A stretch of DNA of 64,000 nucleotides from Marinilabiliaceae bacterium JC017 (GTDB lineage Bacteria; Bacteroidota; Bacteroidia; Bacteroidales; Marinilabiliaceae). The translations under genes and the position numbers were made by a program. The DNA lies in assembly GCA_004296775.1 (NCBI GenBank), contig RHGE01000003.1, forward strand, positions 1 through 64,000, written 5' to 3'. Positions 42,601 through 57,631 of this stretch are shown in pieces (position 1 is the stretch's first letter; every line of letters starts with the position of its first letter). The notes beneath the pieces were generated by a model. The model had not been told where the DNA came from, ran no database searches, and saw only the letters and a program-made list of their open reading frames with translations.

Positions 42601-44703
42601 ATGGGTAAAAGAAGAAAGATGAGTGATTATAGAATAGGGATTTATAGACTTGTCTTGTCGATGGTGTGTGCATGTATTATGCTTCCATCATTAACTTTTG
42701 GACAGCTAAAACAGCAGGAGCAGCTGATGAGTAAACTGAAAAATGCCTCTCAGAAAGAAAAAGTCGCTATTTATAACCAGTTGTCAAGGCTGAGTGTTTA
42801 TGATGATCCCGAAAAGGCGATTCATTATGCTGACCAGGCTTTGAAAATAGCTCTTTCATTGAAAGATAAAAAGGGCGAAGCGGAGGCTTATAACAACATG
42901 GGGATGGGGTATTATTTTGAGAGTGATTATGAGCGATTGCTCGATTTTTATAAAAAGTCGCTTACCACTTATCGGTCTATTGGTGATAACCGAAGTATCT
43001 CCACCCTTTCGTCTATCTATTTTCGTCTCAATCAATCCGAGAAGGCGCTTGCTAATTATAAACGATCCTTGAAATTGAATTTGTCGGAAGGCGATTGGCA
43101 GAAAGCAGCCGATTCCTATCGAAGTATGGGTGATGTGTATAAGAACCTGGCAGAGTATCCACTGGCCCTGGAGAATTATCGAAAGGCCATGGAGCTTACC
43201 AATAAACTGGATGCGGAAAAGCAGAGGGAAGAGCGGGCCCGTTTGTTGGGTTTGATTGGTGAGGTTTCTTTCTACCAGGAGGCTTATGATACGGCGCTGG
43301 TATATTTCCAGGAGTTACAAGTACTGTTGGAGGAGATTGGCGACCGGCAAGGGGTAGGGGTGGTATTGAATAGCATGGCTAATGCGTACTTCTTCAAGGG
43401 GGATAATGAACGGGCGTTCGATATGTATGAGCAATCGCTGACGATTCAAAAAGATCAAAACGATCACTACGGAGCGGCCATGTCATTGCTGAACATGGGA
43501 TTGATCTACTCGCGGAAGAAGCAATGGACAAAAGCACTGCAGATGCATAAAAAAAGTATCCGGCTGGCACTGGTGATCAATGCCTCTGACTTGTTGCGGG
43601 ATAATTACCTCTATATTTCTCGTATCTGCCAGGAGCAGAAAAGCTTTGAGAAAGCTTATGAGTATCGGATTTTGTTTTCCGAACTGTCGGAGTCTATGGC
43701 GCTGGAGGAGAATGTGACACAGTTTGTGAGCTCTCTGGCACTTCAGGAGCTGGATCAGAAGAAGCAGGAGAATGAGATATTACAGGCAAAAAATGAGAAT
43801 TACCGGTTGAAGCTGGAAAAGGAGAGCCTCATCAGGTGGCGGTTGTCCTTCGGATTTACCATCCTGATTATTTCTATTCTTGTTTTCGTTATTTACTATC
43901 GGTACTACCTGAAACGCGAAGAGAATCAGAACCTGGAACGGCGCATTAAAGCCGCTCTGAAGAAGCAGGAGGAGCAGCAGCAGATTATTACCCATCAGGC
44001 CAGTCTTACTTCATTGGGCGAATTAGCCGCGGGAATTGCACACGAGATAAACCAACCTATACAAAATATCTCCCTTTCGGCTGAAAGTATAAAATATGAG
44101 TTGATAGAAGAGGAGCCAAATGCTCCTTATATAAAGCAATCGGTGGATGAGGTGTTTGAAGAAATAGTGCGGGTGCGTGAGATTGTGGATCACATTCGAA
44201 TTTTCTCCAGCGGACAAAAAGAGGAGATATTTGAAAAGTTCACGGTTTCAGATTGCGTTCAATCAGCCTTGTCAATCATAGGCAGGCAATTTGCCAATCA
44301 TCATATTGCGCTGGCGTTGAGTCTAAATGATGACAACGTATTTGTTTTGGGTAACCCCCATAAGTTGGAGCAGGTGGTGCATAACCTGTTGTCCAATGCA
44401 AGGGATGCTGTGGAAGATGAGCGTTTGATGAAGGAGGGGCGTTGCCGGAAGATTGAGATCTTTACAACCAGCACGGATAAAGAGGTGATGTTGGAAGTGA
44501 AAGATAATGGTGTGGGGATTTCGGAGAAAAGGAAGACAGATATCTTTTTGCCCTTTGTCACCAGTAAGCAACTAGGTAAAGGTACCGGGCTTGGGTTATC
44601 CATTTCCTATAGTATTGTGAAAGAGATGGGAGGACGCATTGATGTGGAGAGCCAGGAAGGGGAAGGCACCATCATGCGCATTACCTTACCTGTCTATAAC
44701 TGA
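42601..44703 (+). CDS. TPR-containing sensor histidine kinase
   Basis: A 700-residue kinase. A signal peptide (MVCACIMLPSLTFGQ) exports a periplasmic sensor of about eight TPR repeats (about 55-375: EAYNNMGMGYYFESDY, DSYRSMGDVYKNLAEYPLAL, NSMANAYFFKGDNERAFDMY, SLLNMGLIYSRKKQW). A membrane helix (about 413-435) and a coiled coil follow. The dimerisation box has GELAAGIAHEINQPI (His481) and the ATPase box NLLSNARDAVED, EVKDNGVGI and GKGTGLGLSISYSIV. The AHEINQP form is typical of NtrB-type kinases. Its partner is the sigma-54 regulator at 45010, separated by 306 bases that hold repeats. The gene is visibly richer in G and C than the region before. Confidence 0.94.
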   Translation: MGKRRKMSDYRIGIYRLVLSMVCACIMLPSLTFGQLKQQEQLMSKLKNASQKEKVAIYNQLSRLSVYDDPEKAIHYADQALKIALSLKDKKGEAEAYNNMGMGYYFESDYERLLDFYKKSLTTYRSIGDNRSISTLSSIYFRLNQSEKALANYKRSLKLNLSEGDWQKAADSYRSMGDVYKNLAEYPLALENYRKAMELTNKLDAEKQREERARLLGLIGEVSFYQEAYDTALVYFQELQVLLEEIGDRQGVGVVLNSMANAYFFKGDNERAFDMYEQSLTIQKDQNDHYGAAMSLLNMGLIYSRKKQWTKALQMHKKSIRLALVINASDLLRDNYLYISRICQEQKSFEKAYEYRILFSELSESMALEENVTQFVSSLALQELDQKKQENEILQAKNENYRLKLEKESLIRWRLSFGFTILIISILVFVIYYRYYLKREENQNLERRIKAALKKQEEQQQIITHQASLTSLGELAAGIAHEINQPIQNISLSAESIKYELIEEEPNAPYIKQSVDEVFEEIVRVREIVDHIRIFSSGQKEEIFEKFTVSDCVQSALSIIGRQFANHHIALALSLNDDNVFVLGNPHKLEQVVHNLLSNARDAVEDERLMKEGRCRKIEIFTTSTDKEVMLEVKDNGVGISEKRKTDIFLPFVTSKQLGKGTGLGLSISYSIVKEMGGRIDVESQEGEGTIMRITLPVYN

Positions 44704-45009: not shown

Positions 45010-46401
45010 ATGAGTGACCTGAAAGTATTGATTGTTGATGACGAACAAAGAATAACCGAAAAACTGAAATACCACCTGGAGAGGCGCAACTTTAGTATTT
45101 TTTGCGCCAACACACCCAATGAAGGTTTTCAGCTTCTGGCGCAGGAACAACCCGGTATTTTGCTGTTGGATGTGATGTTGCCCGGGATGAATGGGCTGGA
45201 CATGCTCAAAAAGGTGAAAGCGGATTACCCGCAAATGGAAGTAATCATGATAAGCGGGTATGGTGATATGGACATGGTCATTCAGGCCATGCGGCAGGGT
45301 GCGTCCGATTTTATTCGCAAACCCTTTCAGATAATGGATATCCAACTGGCCATTGAGCGTACCAGTAAGTACCTGCAGTTGCAATCGCGGCTTGAGGTGG
45401 CCGAGAACCGGGGATCGTTGGTATCGCGGGAGCTGGAGAGTATGATTGAAAAGGATTTTGTGGGCGAGAGTCCGCAAATTAAGAAAGTGCTCAGGATGGC
45501 CTTGAAAGCCGCCGAAGACCGGGAAGTGAATGTGTTGGTGACCGGAGAGAACGGTACGGGGAAGGAGATTATCTCACGCATTATTCATTATGGCAGCCCG
45601 CGTAAAGGGGAGGTGTTTGCCCCGGTTAATAGTTCAGCCATTCCTGAAACGTTGTTGGAAAGTGAGTTTTTTGGGCATGTGAAAGGGGCTTTTACCGATG
45701 CCCGGGAAGAGAAGAAAGGCTATTTTGAGTTGGCCAATAATGGTACCTTGTTTTTGGATGAAATTGCCGATATGCCCTTTGCGTTGCAGGCAAAACTGTT
45801 AAGAGCCATTGAAGAGGGTAAAATAAAACGGGTGGGAAGTAACCGCGAGATACCGGTTGACGTGCGCATCATTTCGGCCACCAATAAGAATATTGAGAAA
45901 CTCATTGGCGAGAATAAATTCCGGATTGACTTGTTTCACCGGATCAACACCATTGAGATTCATATTCCCCCTTTGCGCCAGCGCCCGGTAGATATTAAGC
46001 CGCTGGTGGAACATTTTGTGGCACAGATAGCCAGGAAAAAGGGTAAAGTAGAGCCGGCCATCTCCGATTCTTTATTGGCCAAGCTGGAGAAATACCACTT
46101 TCCCGGTAATGTGAGGGAGTTAAGAAATATGGTCGAGCGTGCCATGATTCTCTCCGAAAACGACACACTGCAACCGGAAGATTTTCCGTTGAGAGGTGAA
46201 GGTTGTAAGCCGGTTGTTGAGGTGGCAACGGGCAATAATGGATTCAATCTCGATAACCATGAAAAGCAACTCGTAGAAGGGGCCCTGAAGCAGTGCAACA
46301 TGAATCAAACCCAGGCCGCTGTGCTTTTAGGTATTAGCCGGGATGCCATGAAACGAAAAGTTAAGAAGTATGGTGTTGAAATAGTTAAAGACCTGCATTG
46401 A
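45010..46401 (+). CDS. Sigma-54-dependent response regulator (NtrC family)
   Basis: A 463-residue regulator. The receiver domain (about 4-118) has the acidic pair VDDEQ, the phospho-acceptor Asp54 in LLLDVMLPGMNG, and KPF. The AAA+ domain (about 145-370) has Walker A TGENGTGKE (about 178-186), the sigma-54 contact loop GAFTDA (226-231) in place of the consensus GAFTGA, Walker B LFLDEIAD and the R-finger region. A Fis-type helix-turn-helix closes it (about 420-460, NMNQTQAAVLLGISRDAMKRK). It activates sigma-54 promoters after phosphorylation by the kinase encoded upstream. Target genes are unknown. Confidence 0.95.
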   Translation: MSDLKVLIVDDEQRITEKLKYHLERRNFSIFCANTPNEGFQLLAQEQPGILLLDVMLPGMNGLDMLKKVKADYPQMEVIMISGYGDMDMVIQAMRQGASDFIRKPFQIMDIQLAIERTSKYLQLQSRLEVAENRGSLVSRELESMIEKDFVGESPQIKKVLRMALKAAEDREVNVLVTGENGTGKEIISRIIHYGSPRKGEVFAPVNSSAIPETLLESEFFGHVKGAFTDAREEKKGYFELANNGTLFLDEIADMPFALQAKLLRAIEEGKIKRVGSNREIPVDVRIISATNKNIEKLIGENKFRIDLFHRINTIEIHIPPLRQRPVDIKPLVEHFVAQIARKKGKVEPAISDSLLAKLEKYHFPGNVRELRNMVERAMILSENDTLQPEDFPLRGEGCKPVVEVATGNNGFNLDNHEKQLVEGALKQCNMNQTQAAVLLGISRDAMKRKVKKYGVEIVKDLH

Positions 46402-50184: not shown

Positions 50185-50445
50185 AAAGAATCATCCCGGA
50201 CCGATGACTGAATTCGGATGTTGGGAAGAAAGGCCCGGGATGATTACCAAAAGGAAAGTATGAACTTAAACAATCGCGTCTTAAATACTTTTATTTATTG
50301 CCTTTAAAGGGCTTGTTTTTTTTAACCTATCGGCGTAGTCGGTGTGATGGTGAAAAAACATCCCGAACCAATGACTGAATTCGGTTTTTGGGAATAATGG
50401 TTCGGGACGTTCACCATAAGAAAAATATGAAAACTTAAACAATCG
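50185..50445. repeat. 167-bp tandem duplication of the hydrogenase gene end and its terminator hairpin
   Basis: GACTGAATTCGG at 50206 recurs at 50373, 167 bases apart. Both copies carry a CATCCCG...CGGGA(T/C)G hairpin and end in AACTTAAACAATCGC. The right-hand AAACAATCGC contains the stop and last codons of the hydrogenase gene. The left copy is an extra gene end plus terminator. On the minus strand each hairpin is followed by a U-rich run, so both can act as terminators of the hydrogenase operon. Confidence 0.75.
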
Positions 50446-51880
50446 CCTTTTCTTTTAACTCATCAATGGCCTTCCTCAGGTTGGCTTGCCCCATTTGTGA
50501 GGGGGCAATGATGCCCGGGCCGCTGATGCAACCTCCTTCGCAGGCCATGACCTCCACAAAATTGGCCTTTGGCGGACGTATGGGGAAGGTCTTTAATAGT
50601 TTGATGGTTTTTTTGGAGAGGCCATTTACCATGAAGGCTTTGAAATTGGTGCCTTCGGGCAGGATGCTCTCAATGGCAGCCGTGACGCCACCTGATGCAG
50701 CAAAGCCGCGACCTTCCGGTGTAATGGCAGCTGATGAAGCAAGTGCTTCGTTTTGGGTAACGTCAATGCCTTCTACGGCAAAGAATGCTCCTAGTTCTTC
50801 GGCTGTCATCACGTAATCCACGCTTTTATTCAGGAAGGCCTCTTTTCTTTTTGCCAGACAGGGGCCGATAAAGACCAGTTTGGCATTTGGGTATTTCTCT
50901 CTTGCCACGTCAGCGGTGAAAACCATGGGCGATGGCGTGTGGCTGACATGAGGGATCAATCCCTTAATGTGCTTTTGGGTTAGCTCTGTATAGGCTGGAC
51001 AACAGGAGGTGGTCATGAATGTTTCGCCGGCCTCCATCTTCTCTTTCCATTCAGCTGTTTCGTGCTGGGTGGTTATATCAGCTCCTTGTGCCACTTCAAT
51101 TACATCGGCGAATCCCAGCTTACTGATGGCATTTAAAATTTTTCCCGCTTCTGCCTTAAACTGACCAAGTACGGCCGGTGCTACCAGTGCAATCGTAGGG
51201 GTCTTGGTTTGTATTTGTTTGTAGATGTGTAAGATTTGTGACTTCTCGTTGATGGCACCAAAGGGGCAACTGTTCATGCATTTTCCGCAATGGATACATT
51301 TGTCGAAGTCAATCTCTTCCACGCCATATTCGTTTTTAGAGATGGCATTTACCGGGCACGACTCCTCGCAGGGGACCGGCAGATAAGCAATGGCATGGAA
51401 GGGGCATGCCTTCTGGCACAAACCGCAGTTTACGCATTTTTGGTGATCGATAAAGGCTTTTCCGTTAATTATTTGGATAGCATCTTTGGGGCAGTTGACC
51501 TGGCAGGAGCGGCCTTCGCATCCCTGACACAGGTTACTTACGGTGTAGTTAACTTTAACACAGGAGCTACATGCTTCGTCTACCACTGTGAGAAAATTAC
51601 CGGTTATCTTTTCTTGCAGTAAGGCTTCTGCTGCATATTCTCTTAACGGAGTCAGTTCATCCTCTTCGTCTGATATATTATAGCCTAACAGCGCCATTAT
51701 TTTATATTTGATAACTGCACGATCCTTATGCACGCAGCAACGGATAGGTGCTTTGGTACGCGGTCGCATTTCCAGGGGAATACGATCGATTTCCTCAAGC
51801 AGACTATCTTTCTTCAATAGTTTAAGAATTCGGACTAGTAGTTCACGTTTCGTGAAAATGGCATTGTTGTAATACGTCAT
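50435..51880 (-). CDS. [FeFe] hydrogenase, group-B-like catalytic subunit
   Basis: This 481-residue protein starts with a helical region (1-100). Ferredoxin-like clusters follow: C118-x2-C121-x4-C126-x3-C130; C149-x2-C152-x2-C155-x3-C159; C171 and C175; C195-x2-C198-x2-C201-x3-C205. The H-cluster domain (about 225-481) has all three signatures: L1 TTSCCPAY (Cys293, Cys294), L2 IGPCLAKRKEA (Cys341) and L3 VEVMACEGGCISGPG (Cys447, Cys451). The L1 proton-relay cysteine is kept, so H2 turnover is expected, and the L1/L2 variants fit group B. It is the last gene of the operon, two bases after the ferredoxin-like gene. Maturases HydEFG are not in the window. Confidence 0.93.
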   Translation of the reverse strand: MTYYNNAIFTKRELLVRILKLLKKDSLLEEIDRIPLEMRPRTKAPIRCCVHKDRAVIKYKIMALLGYNISDEEDELTPLREYAAEALLQEKITGNFLTVVDEACSSCVKVNYTVSNLCQGCEGRSCQVNCPKDAIQIINGKAFIDHQKCVNCGLCQKACPFHAIAYLPVPCEESCPVNAISKNEYGVEEIDFDKCIHCGKCMNSCPFGAINEKSQILHIYKQIQTKTPTIALVAPAVLGQFKAEAGKILNAISKLGFADVIEVAQGADITTQHETAEWKEKMEAGETFMTTSCCPAYTELTQKHIKGLIPHVSHTPSPMVFTADVAREKYPNAKLVFIGPCLAKRKEAFLNKSVDYVMTAEELGAFFAVEGIDVTQNEALASSAAITPEGRGFAASGGVTAAIESILPEGTNFKAFMVNGLSKKTIKLLKTFPIRPPKANFVEVMACEGGCISGPGIIAPSQMGQANLRKAIDELKEKAIV

Positions 51881-51882
51881 TT

Positions 51883-52137
51883 TTACAGTTGCTTTGTAAT
51901 GTGTGTGATTATTTTCTGTATGGTGGCGTTGGGGATTAATTCATCGTTGATCATCACGCAGGGGGGACGATCTTCGTTGTCGTCCTGGCATACACCAAGA
52001 CAGGAAGCTCCTTCGATTTTTACCAATGGAGCAATGTGTGCCGGCAGATGCTCCTTGAGCAGGTGCAGTTCGGCGCCTCCCATGATGTAACACATGGTGC
52101 CGCAGCAGATTTTGATGGTTATAGTTGGCTTTGTCAT
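51883..52137 (-). CDS. Thioredoxin-like [2Fe-2S] ferredoxin
   Basis: This 84-residue protein has the C-x4-C (CCGTMC) and CLGVC pairs of the NuoE/HoxE-like thioredoxin-fold [2Fe-2S] family (IKICCGTMCYIMGGAEL, GASCLGVCQDD, PPCVMINDEL). It should carry electrons to or from a hydrogenase. It sits between the SpoIIE phosphatase gene (5-base gap) and the catalytic hydrogenase gene (2-base gap), so translation is probably coupled. A second member of the family opens the operon at 55307. Confidence 0.9.
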   Translation of the reverse strand: MTKPTITIKICCGTMCYIMGGAELHLLKEHLPAHIAPLVKIEGASCLGVCQDDNEDRPPCVMINDELIPNATIQKIITHITKQL

Positions 52138-52142
52138 AAGGG

Positions 52143-53330
52143 TTATAAATATTCTATGTTGATTGTTTTTAGAAATTTGTCCTCCAGTAAGGCTGCAATC
52201 TTCTTGATTACATTTCGTCGTATCTCCAGCTCCACCGGGAGGTTTGGATCCTGGTGGGCATTGTTGATGCGGGTGCCGGCCATCAGTGTGATTTCATCGG
52301 TGTTTAAAAGCAGCCGCACCATCTGTTCCGCCGGTCCGTTGCCTTTTATTTCGGTGGATGTGAGTTCCTCCAATAGGCGCGATACCTTGCCCAGTGTGAG
52401 GATGCCCTCTGTTACCAGGTTGATGCCTTCCATTTTTGAGACGGGTGGCAATGAAGGATCGGGATTATTCAGGCTGACTTCAATGGGGATATTAAGCTCC
52501 CTGGAGATGATTTTGGAGGTGGTACCTCCGCAGATGATCTTCTTTCCGTCAAAATTTTTAATGCGTTCGGCTAATAAGCTATCACAGTTTTCATGAAACG
52601 GAGGGCCGGTAGCAATCATCAGGTGGCGGGGCTCGCGGCAATAGATGACGTGACACGTGGCATCGTCGGTTAAATGGCCTTTGTCGTTGATAGAGGCCCG
52701 GTAAACGATTTTACGTGCCAGCTGATGGGCTGATATTTCCGGGTTTTGTTTGATTGTTTGCCGGATGTATTTTTTCAGCCCGTCGCTTTCCCAGCCAAAG
52801 GGAAAATGCGGGGTGCCCATGGCTGATTGTGTTATGCCATCGGATACGATGATGATGCGGTCTTCCTTTTTAAGGTTTAGACAGGAATAAGATACCTTTG
52901 CGCGCCGTCCTCCAGGCCGTGTCAGGGTGCGTACCTCCTTGGATGGCTCGTAAAAATTACCGTCGCGATAGATAATCAACGGGGGATTGTCGTATTCCAC
53001 CACTTTGGCTTCGCCCAGACAATTAATGTCAATAATGGTAAAGGTGGAGTAGCTTATCTGTCGTTTGGCATCGATGGGTAAGGTGTTCATGATAAACTCC
53101 GCCGTCCGTTCCAAAGGATCATTCTTGGCAGTGAACTGCAAGGCCATAGAAGTGGTCATGGTGGCCAGTACGTTGGCTTTAACTCCACTGCCCAAACCAT
53201 CGGAAAGCACAGTGATGAGGCGGTCTTCGTCTTTTAGCTTACGCGAAAGACAAGCGTCGCCACAAACCCGCTGGTTGGCTTTCTTCTCCTGGTATGTTTC
53301 TGCTTCTATGAAAAACCTTTGGTTATGCAT
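52143..53330 (-). CDS. SpoIIE-type PP2C serine/threonine phosphatase
   Basis: This 395-residue protein has a SpoIIE/PP2C-type phosphatase domain (about 15-235). Metal-binding acidic blocks are GDACLSRKL, LSDGLGSGVKA (first Asp-Gly pair), IIVSDGITQSAMG (second Asp-Gly) and TDDATCHVIYC (Asp pair). The C-terminal 150 residues (ENCDSLLAERIKNFDGKKII) form a domain I do not recognise. It removes phosphate from a Ser/Thr-phosphorylated partner. It overlaps the sensory hydrogenase gene by 8 bases. In other bacteria sensory [FeFe] hydrogenases are often encoded with PP2C phosphatases or kinases, so it is the likely output of the sensor. The target protein is unknown. Confidence 0.9.
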   Translation of the reverse strand: MHNQRFFIEAETYQEKKANQRVCGDACLSRKLKDEDRLITVLSDGLGSGVKANVLATMTTSMALQFTAKNDPLERTAEFIMNTLPIDAKRQISYSTFTIIDINCLGEAKVVEYDNPPLIIYRDGNFYEPSKEVRTLTRPGGRRAKVSYSCLNLKKEDRIIIVSDGITQSAMGTPHFPFGWESDGLKKYIRQTIKQNPEISAHQLARKIVYRASINDKGHLTDDATCHVIYCREPRHLMIATGPPFHENCDSLLAERIKNFDGKKIICGGTTSKIISRELNIPIEVSLNNPDPSLPPVSKMEGINLVTEGILTLGKVSRLLEELTSTEIKGNGPAEQMVRLLLNTDEITLMAGTRINNAHQDPNLPVELEIRRNVIKKIAALLEDKFLKTINIEYL

Positions 53331-55050
53331 TGGGTTCCTTGTGTGCGTCTAAAATTGAGTTTAACAATGAATCGGTGTAACTGGCATTTTCACCCAGCAG
53401 GAAGGCAATTTTTTGCACGGTTTCCATGTTTTTGCTGATCACTTCACGTGTGCGTTTCTCTACGATATCCTTCTGGAATTCCGGTTGGTGGATGTTTTGC
53501 ATGATGCCTGTTACCAGTTTGTGTTTTTGTATGTTGAAGATGGATAACTGGAAGTTGCGGCCATTTTCAACGAATGTTATTTCTTTGAACTCTTTTCCTG
53601 TTAACAAGGCGGCTTTCAGGTGTTTGCTGAAAGTGCCCAGTTTTTCCAGTTCAGCTCCCCGCATGCCGGGATTGGCTTCGAAGCAGAGCTCCATTTCCTG
53701 GCCTAACATATGCGCGAAGTTGTGGTTCATTTCAACTACTTTATTCTGGTCGTCCACAATGATAACCCCTGATGGGATTTTTTGCAGTAAGATGGTGGCT
53801 TTGTGGTGAGCCACTTGCCGCATGTATGATACACACATGGCTGACTCCGCCCGGTTTTCCAGTAGCGCTTTGGCAAAATCACGACACGTATCGTAACCGC
53901 AACCGCTGCAGTTTAATTCATCGGCCACACTTGTTTTTCCAATGCTGTACAGTGCTTGCCTGATCGCTTCATTGGTGACGGTGGTTGTTTCTACCGGGGT
54001 GATATTAAAGTAATCCCGTTCTATGTTGATGGATGGGAGTTCATGTGGTTTGGGATCCAGGGATTTTCGATTGTTGAAGTCCTCAATGATCGAAAGTTTC
54101 TTTTTAACGATGCCTTCGCGTTTGTTGATGCCCGGGCCATTGATGCAGCCGCCTTCGCAAGCCAGTAGTTCAAGGAACATGGGCCGGTCCTTTCCGAGTG
54201 TGTCTAGCTCTTTCAATACTGAGTTCACCTGGTCCATGCCTGAAAAACTCATGAATGAGCTGTTGGTGTTCGGGGAGTTGGTATTTAATGTGTTGATCAT
54301 ACCTCCGTCCAGCGGGTAGATAGCGCCATCTGCAGCTTCAAAGGGTATGAAGGTATTGGCTTCTTCGTTATTTTCGCCTTGAGTGGTGAAATCAATATTT
54401 TCTGCTTCAAGCCAGTCGCTAAGCTCTTTAAATGTTAGAGCCGCATCAATTAATTGGTTAAAGTTATCGGCTTCTAATTTTTTCGCAATGCATGGGCCGA
54501 TAAAGACCACGCTGGTATCTTCCCCGTACCAATCTTTCAGCATTTTAGCATGTGCCAGCATTGGTGACATAAACGGGGTAATGGCCATGGTATGTTGTGG
54601 ATAGTATTTCCTGATCAACTCAACCACTGAGGGGCAGGCCGAAGAGATATATACACCATTTTGACGTCCTTCAAGGTAGCTGTTTAGTTGTTCAGAAACC
54701 TTTTGTGCGCCAAGTGCTGTCTCAGAGATGCCATTAAAGCCAAGTTTTTTTAATGCTGATACCATCTCCTCTGAGGTGGTGTTGGGAAACTCAGAAGCAT
54801 AAGAGGGAGCCAGTGACACGAAGACGCGCGGTTTGTGCTTGATTAACCATTTGGCCCTGCTGATGCCATTTCGTACTTTTTTGGCACCGGCCGGACAAAT
54901 TGAAACACAATGCCCGCAATAAATGCAAAGGTCGTCTACAATCGATGCTTTATTATCCGCTATTTTAATGGCCTTTGTGGGGCATTCACGGATGCACTTG
55001 TAGCAATCTTTGCAGTCATTGACTTCTGTGTATATGGGCTTAAGATTCAT
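53323..55050 (-). CDS. hydS: Sensory [FeFe] hydrogenase-like protein (HydS type) with PAS domain
   Basis: A 575-residue protein. N-terminal 2[4Fe-4S] ferredoxin (Cys13, 16, 19, 23 and 42, 45, 48, 52) leads into an H-cluster-like domain (about 75-330). Its motifs are L1 SSACP (136-140), L2 IGPCIAKKLEAD (Cys187) and L3 LLACEGGC (Cys298, Cys302). In L1 the proton-relay cysteine is alanine (Ala138) while the cluster-binding Cys139 is kept, as described for the slow, sensory HydS enzymes. A [4Fe-4S] domain of the C-x2-C-x4-C type (Cys381, 384, 389, 406) and a PAS domain (about 415-520) follow, then a coiled end. It should sense H2 or redox state and signal to the overlapping phosphatase. Its start overlaps the upstream ferredoxin gene by 4 bases. 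Confidence 0.92.
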   Translation of the reverse strand: MNLKPIYTEVNDCKDCYKCIRECPTKAIKIADNKASIVDDLCIYCGHCVSICPAGAKKVRNGISRAKWLIKHKPRVFVSLAPSYASEFPNTTSEEMVSALKKLGFNGISETALGAQKVSEQLNSYLEGRQNGVYISSACPSVVELIRKYYPQHTMAITPFMSPMLAHAKMLKDWYGEDTSVVFIGPCIAKKLEADNFNQLIDAALTFKELSDWLEAENIDFTTQGENNEEANTFIPFEAADGAIYPLDGGMINTLNTNSPNTNSSFMSFSGMDQVNSVLKELDTLGKDRPMFLELLACEGGCINGPGINKREGIVKKKLSIIEDFNNRKSLDPKPHELPSINIERDYFNITPVETTTVTNEAIRQALYSIGKTSVADELNCSGCGYDTCRDFAKALLENRAESAMCVSYMRQVAHHKATILLQKIPSGVIIVDDQNKVVEMNHNFAHMLGQEMELCFEANPGMRGAELEKLGTFSKHLKAALLTGKEFKEITFVENGRNFQLSIFNIQKHKLVTGIMQNIHQPEFQKDIVEKRTREVISKNMETVQKIAFLLGENASYTDSLLNSILDAHKEPNA

Positions 55051-55307
55051 TGTTTCTCGTTAAAAAAATGATTCAATATGGAAGTGAGACTGCTGTTTGA
55101 GACCTCTTCAAAGGTCTGGTCGTCTATCTCTATAACCGGGCCTTTGTTGCAGTTTTCGGTGCACAAATGGCCTCTGAAGTCAATCTGGGATTCAATATTG
55201 TTGTCCTTCAGGTATGACTTAATTGTCTCTAGATTCTCTGCATTTCCCCGGGAATAGCAGGAGCTGCCCAGGCAAATCCGAATACAATGTTTTGTTGTTG
55301 TTTCCAT
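55047..55307 (-). CDS. Thioredoxin-like [2Fe-2S] ferredoxin, first gene of the hydrogenase operon
   Basis: This 86-residue NuoE-like thioredoxin-fold protein has CLGSSC and CTENCNKGP cysteine pairs (RICLGSSCYSRGNAENLETI, RGHLCTENCNKGPVIEIDD). It differs from the second copy at 52137 in sequence and probably has a different partner, such as the sensory protein whose start codon overlaps its stop (ATGA-type, 4 bases). A sigma-54-like promoter lies just upstream. Confidence 0.9.
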   Translation of the reverse strand: METTTKHCIRICLGSSCYSRGNAENLETIKSYLKDNNIESQIDFRGHLCTENCNKGPVIEIDDQTFEEVSNSSLTSILNHFFNEKQ

Positions 55308-55331: not shown

Positions 55332-55348
55332 TAGCTATTAGTGTGCCA
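55332..55348 (-). promoter_or_regulatory. Sigma-54 (-24/-12) promoter of the hydrogenase operon
   Basis: Read on the minus strand, TGGCAC (55348-55343), five bases, then TAGCTA (55337-55332) matches TGGCAC-N5-TTGCWW except for one base in the -12 element. GG to GC spacing is exactly 12. The predicted start is near 55322, 15 bases before the ATG at 55307, and an AGAGGT ribosome-binding site follows. A sigma-54 activator gene lies directly upstream. Confidence 0.75.
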
Positions 55349-55453
55349 AAAAGCATAAGAGACAGAAAACTAATATATAAGGAAAGAAGTGATTTTATAT
55401 TGGAGAGAGGATGCTCTGCAAGTGTCCTAAAAATGAACGCAACTATAATATTT

Positions 55454-55495
55454 GAGTGTTCGAAATATGTACACTGTTCGTATATTGAACAGTGT
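55454..55495. promoter_or_regulatory. Palindrome likely to be the enhancer site of the sigma-54 activator
   Basis: ACACTGTTC at 55471-55479 and GAACAGTGT at 55487-55495 form a perfect inverted repeat with a 7-base spacer. A further half-site, GTGTTCG, lies at about 55457. The centre is about 160 bases upstream of the predicted transcription start at 55322, a normal distance for a sigma-54 enhancer. It could also act as a hairpin behind the regulator gene, but no U-run follows. Confidence 0.6.
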
Positions 55496-55497
55496 TT

Positions 55498-57336
55498 CTA
55501 GTTGGGGAACTGTGGGATGTCTATTTTGTACCGTTTAATTTTCTGGTAAAGGGTATTTCGACCAATGCCTAAAGTTTGTGCCACCTGGCTCATGTTTCCC
55601 TTGTGGGCATTAATGGCTTTGATGATTAGAGCCCGTTCCATCTCTTTTATAGTTGTTAATGCAAAATCCGTATTCGGGTGTTCGGCAGTGAAAGCTTCGT
55701 GCTCCGGACTTGGCGATGATGAATTAAATTCTTCTTCTTCCTGGAATTTTTCAAAAGAAATGTTGCCATTGAAATTGACGAGTTGTTCTATGTAGTTTTC
55801 CAATTCTCGAATATTTCCAGGCCAGTTGTAATCTAATAATTGTTGGAGGGTAGAATAGCGTAATTGAGGAACTTGTTTTTGGAGTTTAATACTCTTCTTG
55901 TTTAGAAAGAATCGGATCAGTGATGGCAGATCTTCTTTACGGTTTTTGAGTTCCGGTATTTTTAGAGGGATAACGCTTAAGCGATAGTATAGGTCCAGGC
56001 GGAAGTTTCCATTGTCAACTTCTGTTTTGAGGTCTTTATTTGTGGCAGCGATTATGCGTACATCAACCGGAATTAGTTTGTTACCTCCAATTCGTGTAAT
56101 GGCTCCTTCCTGAATGGCACGTAATAATTTGGCCTGCATGGCAATCTTCATGTCGCCAATTTCATCTAAAAATAGGGTGCCACCATTGGATAATTCAAAT
56201 TTTCCCGGGTGTCCGCCTTTACGAGCTCCGGTAAAAGCCCCGTCATCATAACCAAAAAGCTCGCTTTCTATGAGGTTTTCCGGGATGGCGGCGCAGTTAA
56301 TGGCAACAAATCCTTTGTCTTTGCGGCGGCTGGCATTATGAATGCTTTGGGCAAATACCTCTTTTCCGGTACCGCTTTCGCCTTCGATTAAAACAGTGGA
56401 TGGGCTGTCTGCAATGGTTTTGGCATAGCTGACAAGTTTGCGCATGGATTGGCTCTTAGCAATAATATCTTCAAAGGTGAAGCGTGCTTGCATGCCCGTA
56501 TATTTATTAACCAGATGATAGACATTCTCCAGTTCCCGCATGGAAATGACCAGGCCGATCAGTTGCTTTTGTTCCTGGTCTTGAATAGGTGAAACATTTA
56601 CATTGAACTTTATTTTTGAGGAGGGAGTAGTGATGTTGATCTCTTCATTAATGAATTTTTCTCCCGAACTAACCATTTGATAGATGGCTTCCCAGTTGGG
56701 AATTAATTGATCTATGGGCATGGTGATTAGTTCGCGCCGGCGAATGTTGAGTGTGTTGCAGGTAGTGTCATTGGCAAAAAGAATTCTTCCCTTTAGGTTG
56801 ACTGCCATTACGCCTACTTTTAGTGAATTCATTATCGCAAAAGTAAACTGATGGGTATCATCCATCTGTTTTTGTAAGGATACTCCTTTGATTCGGGATT
56901 TAATGGTTGCCTCTGCTGCTTGTAGGATAATGTTGAGCCAACTAAACGGGATGGTTTCTTGAGTCAGTAAGTAGAGTTTAAAAGGTGATTTAGCGGGTGC
57001 GGGTAAGATGATACTGACCCAGTGATAGTTTTGTTCTTCAAACTGAAAGGTGCCGTGTGTATTTGATAAAGCCTGCCAGTTGGGATTTTGCGTGAGGAAG
57101 TTCCAATTGTCACCTGCGGATAGGGAGAAAAGACGTGAGCTGCGTTTGATGTTGTTATGTGCCAGTTGAATTAGTGAGCCTTCACTGCTTACTACGGCAA
57201 TAATACTAACTGTCTCTGATAGGGTGACAGAGAATTCATCCAGGACTTCCTGTAGGGGGCTAATTTCACTGTTTGAATAAGAAGATGTGTTCCGGGATAA
57301 TGATTGTTTTCTTTTGGATGAGTCTTTTAATGCCAT
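55498..57336 (-). CDS. Sigma-54-dependent transcriptional activator with PAS domain
   Basis: I start at the ATG at 57336 (MALKDSSKRKQSLSRNTSSY, 612 residues), because the longer frame adds 32 residues that look non-coding. The N-terminal half holds a GAF-like region (about 30-165) and a PAS domain (about 175-290, FAIMNSLKVGVMAVNLKGRI). The AAA+ domain (about 310-540) has Walker A GESGTGKE, the sigma-54 loop DDGAFTGARKG, Walker B LFLDEIGD and IIAATNKDL. A Fis-type helix-turn-helix ends it (NKGNMSQVAQTLGIGRNTLYQ type). No receiver domain is present, so its PAS/GAF part senses a ligand or redox signal directly. The hydrogenase operon, with a sigma-54 promoter, follows on the same strand. Confidence 0.94.
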   Translation of the reverse strand: MALKDSSKRKQSLSRNTSSYSNSEISPLQEVLDEFSVTLSETVSIIAVVSSEGSLIQLAHNNIKRSSRLFSLSAGDNWNFLTQNPNWQALSNTHGTFQFEEQNYHWVSIILPAPAKSPFKLYLLTQETIPFSWLNIILQAAEATIKSRIKGVSLQKQMDDTHQFTFAIMNSLKVGVMAVNLKGRILFANDTTCNTLNIRRRELITMPIDQLIPNWEAIYQMVSSGEKFINEEINITTPSSKIKFNVNVSPIQDQEQKQLIGLVISMRELENVYHLVNKYTGMQARFTFEDIIAKSQSMRKLVSYAKTIADSPSTVLIEGESGTGKEVFAQSIHNASRRKDKGFVAINCAAIPENLIESELFGYDDGAFTGARKGGHPGKFELSNGGTLFLDEIGDMKIAMQAKLLRAIQEGAITRIGGNKLIPVDVRIIAATNKDLKTEVDNGNFRLDLYYRLSVIPLKIPELKNRKEDLPSLIRFFLNKKSIKLQKQVPQLRYSTLQQLLDYNWPGNIRELENYIEQLVNFNGNISFEKFQEEEEFNSSSPSPEHEAFTAEHPNTDFALTTIKEMERALIIKAINAHKGNMSQVAQTLGIGRNTLYQKIKRYKIDIPQFPN

Positions 57337-57631
57337 GCACGCCTTTTTGTGCAAAATTAATGCTTTTGTCGCAATATTAAAGGTACCTGGAAAAGTGAAA
57401 AATGACCTGGGTGGGCGGTAGAAATCGCCCATGTGGGCGATTTTATACCAGTTGAAGGTAAGGCAATATTTATTGGAAATATTTTTTTAATAGCTGTAAG
57501 TATGTGATATGTAATGGAAATGATGAGAAATGAAGGTTCTATTGATGAAGGAATCCATTGTTTGGTACGCCGCTTGGTTATTAAAGGTCAACAAACAAAT
57601 AATCGATTTATTAATCCTTAAATCAGAGATT

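Follow-up and report, generated by a model that had tools for sequence, protein, structure and literature searches.

What controls the [FeFe]-hydrogenase operon of the window (by which we mean the whole 64,000-nucleotide stretch of DNA analysed here)? A gene for a sigma-54 activator lies next to the operon on the same strand (Table 1), and the DNA between the two, 55332-55495, is very probably a sigma-54 enhancer with its promoter, through which the adjacent activator would switch the hydrogenase operon on.

Table 1. Genes and DNA elements of the window that bear on control of the hydrogenase operon
Feature	Position	Strand	Basis
Sigma-54 activator gene, PAS - AAA+ with GAFTGA - Fis HTH	55498..57432	(-)	domain matches PF00158, PF02954
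Candidate activator site A, TGTTC-AATATAC-GAACA	55475..55491	(-)	core of palindrome 55471-55495; counterpart in relatives
Candidate activator site B, TGTAC-ATATTTC-GAACA	55457..55473	(-)	18 bp centre to centre from A
Candidate activator site C, CGTTC-ATTTTTA-GGACA	55423..55439	(-)	34 bp from B, 84 bp from -24 GG
Sigma-54 -24/-12 promoter, TGGCAC-N5-TAGCTA	55332..55348	(-)	sequence match and conservation in cassettes
Thioredoxin-like [2Fe-2S] (NuoE-like) protein, operon gene 1	55047..55307	(-)	domain match
HydS, putative sensory [FeFe]-hydrogenase: Fer4, H-cluster domain, FeS, weak PAS	53323..55050	(-)	domain matches
SpoIIE-type phosphatase domain protein	52143..53330	(-)	domain match
Second thioredoxin-like [2Fe-2S] protein	51883..52137	(-)	domain match
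Monomeric group-B [FeFe]-hydrogenase	50435..51880	(-)	TIGR04105

The catalytic enzyme of the operon belongs to group B1, with a TIGR04105 score of 520 bits against a cut-off of 450. HydS is of the sensory (group C) type by its Fe_hyd_lg_C and FeS domains, with PAS_8 slightly below cut-off. It carries SSACPS at the place of the catalytic enzyme's TSCCPA, and about 43% of sensory [FeFe]-hydrogenases have alanine at the proton-relay Cys, as given in an excerpt of PMC10055695. HydS and the SpoIIE protein may feed back on the switch. The same genome contains a second cluster (L234, G000:C360:43085-56320) with NuoE-like, HydS-like (32%) and SpoIIE-like (50%) proteins.

The activator has the parts of an enhancer-binding protein, namely an AAA+ sigma-54 domain, a Fis HTH and, in the alignment, DDGAFTGA. 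Its true start is probably Met33, at 57336, because the reading frames of family orthologues begin there or later; the annotated open reading frame is thus probably over-extended. Looking for autoregulation, we found no site scoring at least 7/10 within the 264 bases upstream of Met33. A search of the genome for sigma-54 returned one gene, with a single Sigma54_DBD match (E 5.6e-54).

The promoter, TGGCACACTAATAGCTA at 55348-55332 on the minus strand, agrees with the sigma-54 consensus TGGCAC-N5-TTGCW at 10 of 11 positions and has the spacing GG-N10-GC. It is the single exact match to TGGCACN5TAGCTA across the 6.65-Mb genome, and the near-consensus promoter with exact GG-GC spacing proposed in an earlier note is borne out. 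Only two 16-mers on either strand of the window score 10/11 against the consensus, and the second is without GG. The distance of 15 bases from promoter to start codon given in the same note does not hold: from the end of the motif to the ATG at 55307 there are 24 bases, and 15 fits only the interval from the predicted transcription start, around 55322, to that ATG.

Upstream of the promoter, a 25-bp palindrome, ACACTGTTC-N7-GAACAGTGT, occupies 55495-55471 and begins 2 bases past the activator stop codon, so that both the palindrome and the adjoining gene end are as previously described. This is its sole exact copy in the genome; with up to three mismatches, five other genomic places match, against two for a reversed control. 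The outer ACAC/GTGT arms are lost among relatives and the conserved unit is the 17-bp core. Upstream of relatives' hydrogenase operons, where the earlier note advised looking for the palindrome, it is the core that is kept, three times over, and not the arms. An additional half-site mentioned in the earlier note is a real sequence but belongs to the complete site B, and site C had been overlooked. What was called a complete regulatory region thus holds three full sites, and these, the promoter and their spacing are indeed conserved with the activator. The sites of the window fit TGTYC-N7-GRACA (17 bp, three copies), and the consensus in the intergenic DNA of relatives is TGTCC-N7-GGACA; once the window's own cassette is set aside, all 102 sites of the remaining 34 cassettes have G at position 2 and C at position 16.

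The arrangement of sites A, B and C before a promoter, hereafter the cassette, was searched for with windows of 17-20 bp for A-B, 22-44 bp for B-C and 45-130 bp from C to the promoter. Even at 7/10 matches, the 64 kb contain a single pair of sites separated by 18 bp. The full cassette is found at one place in the window and nowhere in its reversed copy, and its score is reached by none of 200 dinucleotide shuffles made from the intergenic sequence. Likewise, each of 35 activator-adjacent cassettes outscored all 200 of its own dinucleotide shuffles. Among these 35, the A-B spacing is 18 bp in 33 and 19 bp in two (L198, L283), and the B-C spacing is 32-35 bp in 34, L283 having 23. GGCA and the -12 G are identical in all 35, the GG itself being a search requirement, and the -12 C is poorly kept (C in 10/35).

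The distance from site C to the -24 GG is 64-65 bp (n=2), 73-75 bp (n=13) or 83-85 bp (n=20), and none of the 35 cassettes lies between these classes, though 45-130 bp was permitted. In 20000 uniform draws over 17 lineages collapsed by hand, not one clustered this tightly, a figure that serves only as a guide, the lineages being related. The distances differ by steps of about one turn (~10 bp), presumably because DNA looping keeps a fixed rotational phase.

Does the cassette travel with the activator? We counted as orthologues activators found at E 1e-125 or better. In the family sample of 71 genomes, 24 have an orthologue and all 24 have a cassette at the activator gene end, with site A starting between 15 bp inside and 109 bp past it. 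In the family, 21 genomes besides the window's have an orthologous operon. The HydS operon stands directly behind the cassette in 21 of the 24; in three of these (L127, L128, L131) the NuoE-like gene was not detected and HydS comes next after the cassette. In one genome (G015) the contig stops just past the promoter and the operon opens another contig. The group-B hydrogenase alone follows the cassette in two of the 24, so that HydS and the SpoIIE protein are dispensable for the presence of the cassette. Conversely, seven family group-B hydrogenase loci from genomes without the activator have no cassette match scoring at least 29. One locus whose contig starts at the first gene (L124) was omitted, and another from the same genome (L303) has activator and cassette. 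A search of the 71 genomes for a wider regulon with the tandem-site pattern gave 52 places, of which 11 are known cassettes and the other 41 compare with 42 for the reversed control, which gives no hint of further targets; the pattern recovers only 11 of the 24 known cassettes and is a weak test of a regulon.

The site consensus and geometry were learnt in the family before being tested in other families, where the scan of HydS loci was restricted to the three distance classes, with shuffles and activator-free loci as controls. The activator is present in 25 of 393 genomes of the order sample, 22 of them outside the family, and a cassette scoring at least 28 was found in the stretches fetched from 21 of these 22; in the exception, G263, the activator is present and the cassette was not detected. 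Among 29 order-level HydS loci, an upstream cassette occurs in 17/18 with the activator in the genome and 0/11 without (Fisher p 3.5e-7), at 0.5 to 8 kb from HydS. Two of these 17 cassettes get no more than 28, and the one in G376 has a poor site B; counting scores of at least 29, the cassette is present in 15/18 (p 1e-5). Shuffled upstream regions reached 28 in 1/1160 cases and 29 in 0/1160. In G379 the cassette lies just outside the HydS locus and was detected in L294. The conservation of sites, spacing, promoter and operon, and the co-occurrence with the activator, are established by this comparison of sequences.

Behind 13 order-level activator copies no cassette was found within about 480 bp. 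In the genomes of L284, L285 and L292 it was found elsewhere in the cluster and not directly behind the activator; in those of L196, L203 and L206-L211 it is on another contig or far off, before the HydS operon; in G413 and G158 it is behind another activator copy; G263 alone has none in the stretches fetched. In three loci of one genus (L286, L289, L291), translated starts indicate lipoprotein and ABC-transporter-like genes after an activator homologue, with no cassette behind it. Among the Bacteroidales loci, a wider scan gave one 29-point match of other geometry on the opposite strand in L200, whose genome is without the activator; this and a second match in L121, also of other geometry, are taken as chance.

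Farther afield, none of 394 other genomes of the phylum sample has an activator orthologue at E 1e-125, and a contig search with the activator returned distant relatives only (30-57%), none from this group. The 80 activator-search loci, nearly all outside Bacteroidota, gave six matches of 29-32 against one in the reversed control, all of other geometry. Two of the six, in loci titled Polaromonas and beta proteobacterium (L062 4265, L078 7370), lie directly behind the activator homologue and combine three TGT-N11-ACA-like sites with a sigma-54-like promoter, at a different spacing (19, 24, then 58 or 60 bp).

Sites A-C might instead be bound by another protein encoded downstream. Convergent to the operon, the window encodes a TPR histidine kinase at 42601-44703 and, at 45010-46401, a sigma-54 response regulator with a Fis HTH; in 15 of 21 relatives, too, a sigma-54 AAA+ protein is encoded in convergent orientation past the hydrogenase (HydB1). 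However, L225, L233 and most dehydrogenase loci have the cassette without such a neighbour in the stretch fetched, the cassette tracks the orthologue of the adjacent activator (17/18 against 0/11), and site A is found at the end of that activator's gene in 24/24 family genomes. We consider it improbable that the response regulator is the protein acting here. Somewhat less probable again is that most transcripts of the operon start at a housekeeping promoter or read through from the activator gene, sigma-54 control being minor. Activator and operon are indeed co-directional with no T-run terminator seen in between, but the best intergenic match to the Bacteroidetes housekeeping promoter consensus TTTG/TAnnTTTG is only 7/10, whereas the sigma-54 element is kept in 35/35 cassettes. 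A transcription terminator or mRNA hairpin of the activator gene, in place of a protein-binding site, is the least credible account of the palindrome and was rejected, for although the palindrome starts just past the stop codon and forms a hairpin when folded, no T-run follows, the window's hairpin over site A recurs in 0/10 folded relatives (some form other hairpins, L293 a strong one at site A), and the conserved feature is the base identity of the 17-bp unit, present three times at fixed spacing to the promoter.

If the adjacent activator is the protein that drives the operon, the layout suggests how it would do so. Sigma-54 activators act as AAA+ hexamers (PMC7175178, in the part used here). 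From the arrangement of the sites we infer that activator dimers bind the palindromic sites A, B and C, that the three dimers would bring together the six subunits of one AAA+ hexamer, and that this hexamer would reach RNA polymerase-sigma54 at TGGCAC-N5-TAGCT through DNA looping. ATP-driven opening would then switch on the genes for the NuoE-like protein, HydS, the SpoIIE protein, the [2Fe-2S] protein and the group-B [FeFe]-hydrogenase. The cue is probably a cytoplasmic redox or fermentation signal, read by the PAS and N-terminal region. The predicted structure of activator residues 33-312 alone has a mean pLDDT of 33, too low to be used.

In the window's clade the cassette stands directly before the hydrogenase genes. 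Elsewhere, in other families, the gene that follows it encodes an iron alcohol dehydrogenase, an AdhE-like fusion, an NfnA-like subunit or a Rex-like protein, with the HydS operon often next behind those alcohol dehydrogenase or redox genes; in G413 (L209) the NuoE-like gene itself comes first. Pfam matches gave Fe-ADH in L219 and L293 and aldehyde plus Fe-ADH domains in L299; L283 has domain sets like those of NfnA and NfnB, L284 has one like that of NfnA, and L198 and L203 have the CoA-binding domain expected of Rex. Pfam gave no match for the Rex-like gene of L219, that of L300 was left out of the check, and the remaining first genes were named from tblastn likeness or translated starts. 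The cassette-linked Fe-ADH has no close orthologue in the 71 family genomes; at E 1e-100 four have a relative of 46-47%, and the 47% relative in the window's own genome is without cassette. In G158 (L202), two tandem HydS-SpoIIE units lie behind one cassette and an alcohol dehydrogenase.

The activators were compared in the same light, with L118, L298 and L039 (stop codons) left out of all protein work and L129 (a partial gene) out of the tree. In a PAS-AAA-HTH tree, 22 hydrogenase-linked activators form one clade (100/100), next to the dehydrogenase-linked L283 (99/94) and nested among the remaining activators, the outgroup branches being long. A GAF domain was recognised in 10/33 activators, namely in every one of the 10 tested N-termini linked to a dehydrogenase, AdhE or Rex (L198). 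It was not recognised in the nine tested hydrogenase-linked activators (window, L116, L119, L134, L225, L133, L233, L128, L132), nor in that of L300. The first strands of GAF-bearing and GAF-less N-termini still align, loosely, and the GAF may therefore have decayed rather than been exchanged; we regard decay as being as likely as replacement.

We read these patterns as an AdhR-type sigma-54 enhancer that was switched from an alcohol dehydrogenase to an [FeFe]-hydrogenase. The ancestral cassette would have driven an iron alcohol dehydrogenase lying ahead of this operon, and the hydrogenase would have come directly under the cassette once the genes in between were lost. The simplest history combines loss of the genes between cassette and hydrogenase with a change of sensor domain, the order of events being our reconstruction. 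A broader proposal, to which we give even weight for and against, is that the cassette is portable. Its three fixed-spaced dimer sites would serve as the DNA template of a single activator hexamer and stay in helical register with the sigma-54 promoter, and the cassette would have passed within Bacteroidales among electron-sink genes (alcohol dehydrogenase, AdhE, NfnAB-like, Rex-like, group-B hydrogenase). The move to hydrogenase would have come with GAF decay or replacement, and an unchanged DNA code would now respond to another metabolic signal.

According to the part of PMC12578642 used here, most of the H2 made in the gut comes from group-B [FeFe]-hydrogenase, and the regulation of [FeFe]-hydrogenases is believed to involve sensory group-C enzymes. 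Among open-licence papers we found no transcriptional activator of a group-B [FeFe]-hydrogenase, and the present locus offers a precise promoter-activator hypothesis for one. Furthermore, one activator lineage would tie H2 formation to alcohol formation, and the natural set of promoters whose site distances shift by about one turn is material for work on enhancer phasing.

The device itself, an AdhR-type switch, is already known. As described in an excerpt of PMC7017808, AdhR of Clostridium beijerinckii has GAF, PAS, AAA+ and HTH domains and three sites that are all needed for adhA, with looping proposed. The AdhR - sigma-54 - adhA system and the window share a PAS/AAA+/HTH activator, three upstream sites and a sigma-54 promoter, and in other families the Bacteroidales cassette also appears to drive an iron alcohol dehydrogenase. 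Of the features of the AdhR group, the window has the PAS and three TGT-N10-12-ACA sites upstream of the promoter, but not the N-terminal pair of GAF plus PAS or the control of an alcohol dehydrogenase: its target is an [FeFe]-hydrogenase operon, and its activator is without recognisable GAF. A hydrogenase target for an AdhR-type switch, a phased layout and a sensor change were not found in the open-licence papers. Sites of the sigma-54 activators AdhR, PrdR, NifA and FhlA form the TGT-N10-12-ACA class in the portion of PMC6615313 used here, in whose main text hydrogenase occurs once, within a domain name, and never as a target. The cassette site, TGT-N11-ACA, falls inside this class and is set apart by its inner CC/GG and the fixed A-B-C layout. 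The nearest likeness on the hydrogenase side is hfsABCD of Thermoanaerobacterium saccharolyticum and HydS of Ruminococcus albus, which also have a PAS-bearing sensory hydrogenase in a hydrogenase operon and for which a regulatory link between sensory hydrogenase and alcohol dehydrogenase has been suggested (PMC5707799, in an excerpt). Unlike those systems as described there, the window has a catalytic subunit of group B1 and a putative sigma-54 enhancer and activator of its own.
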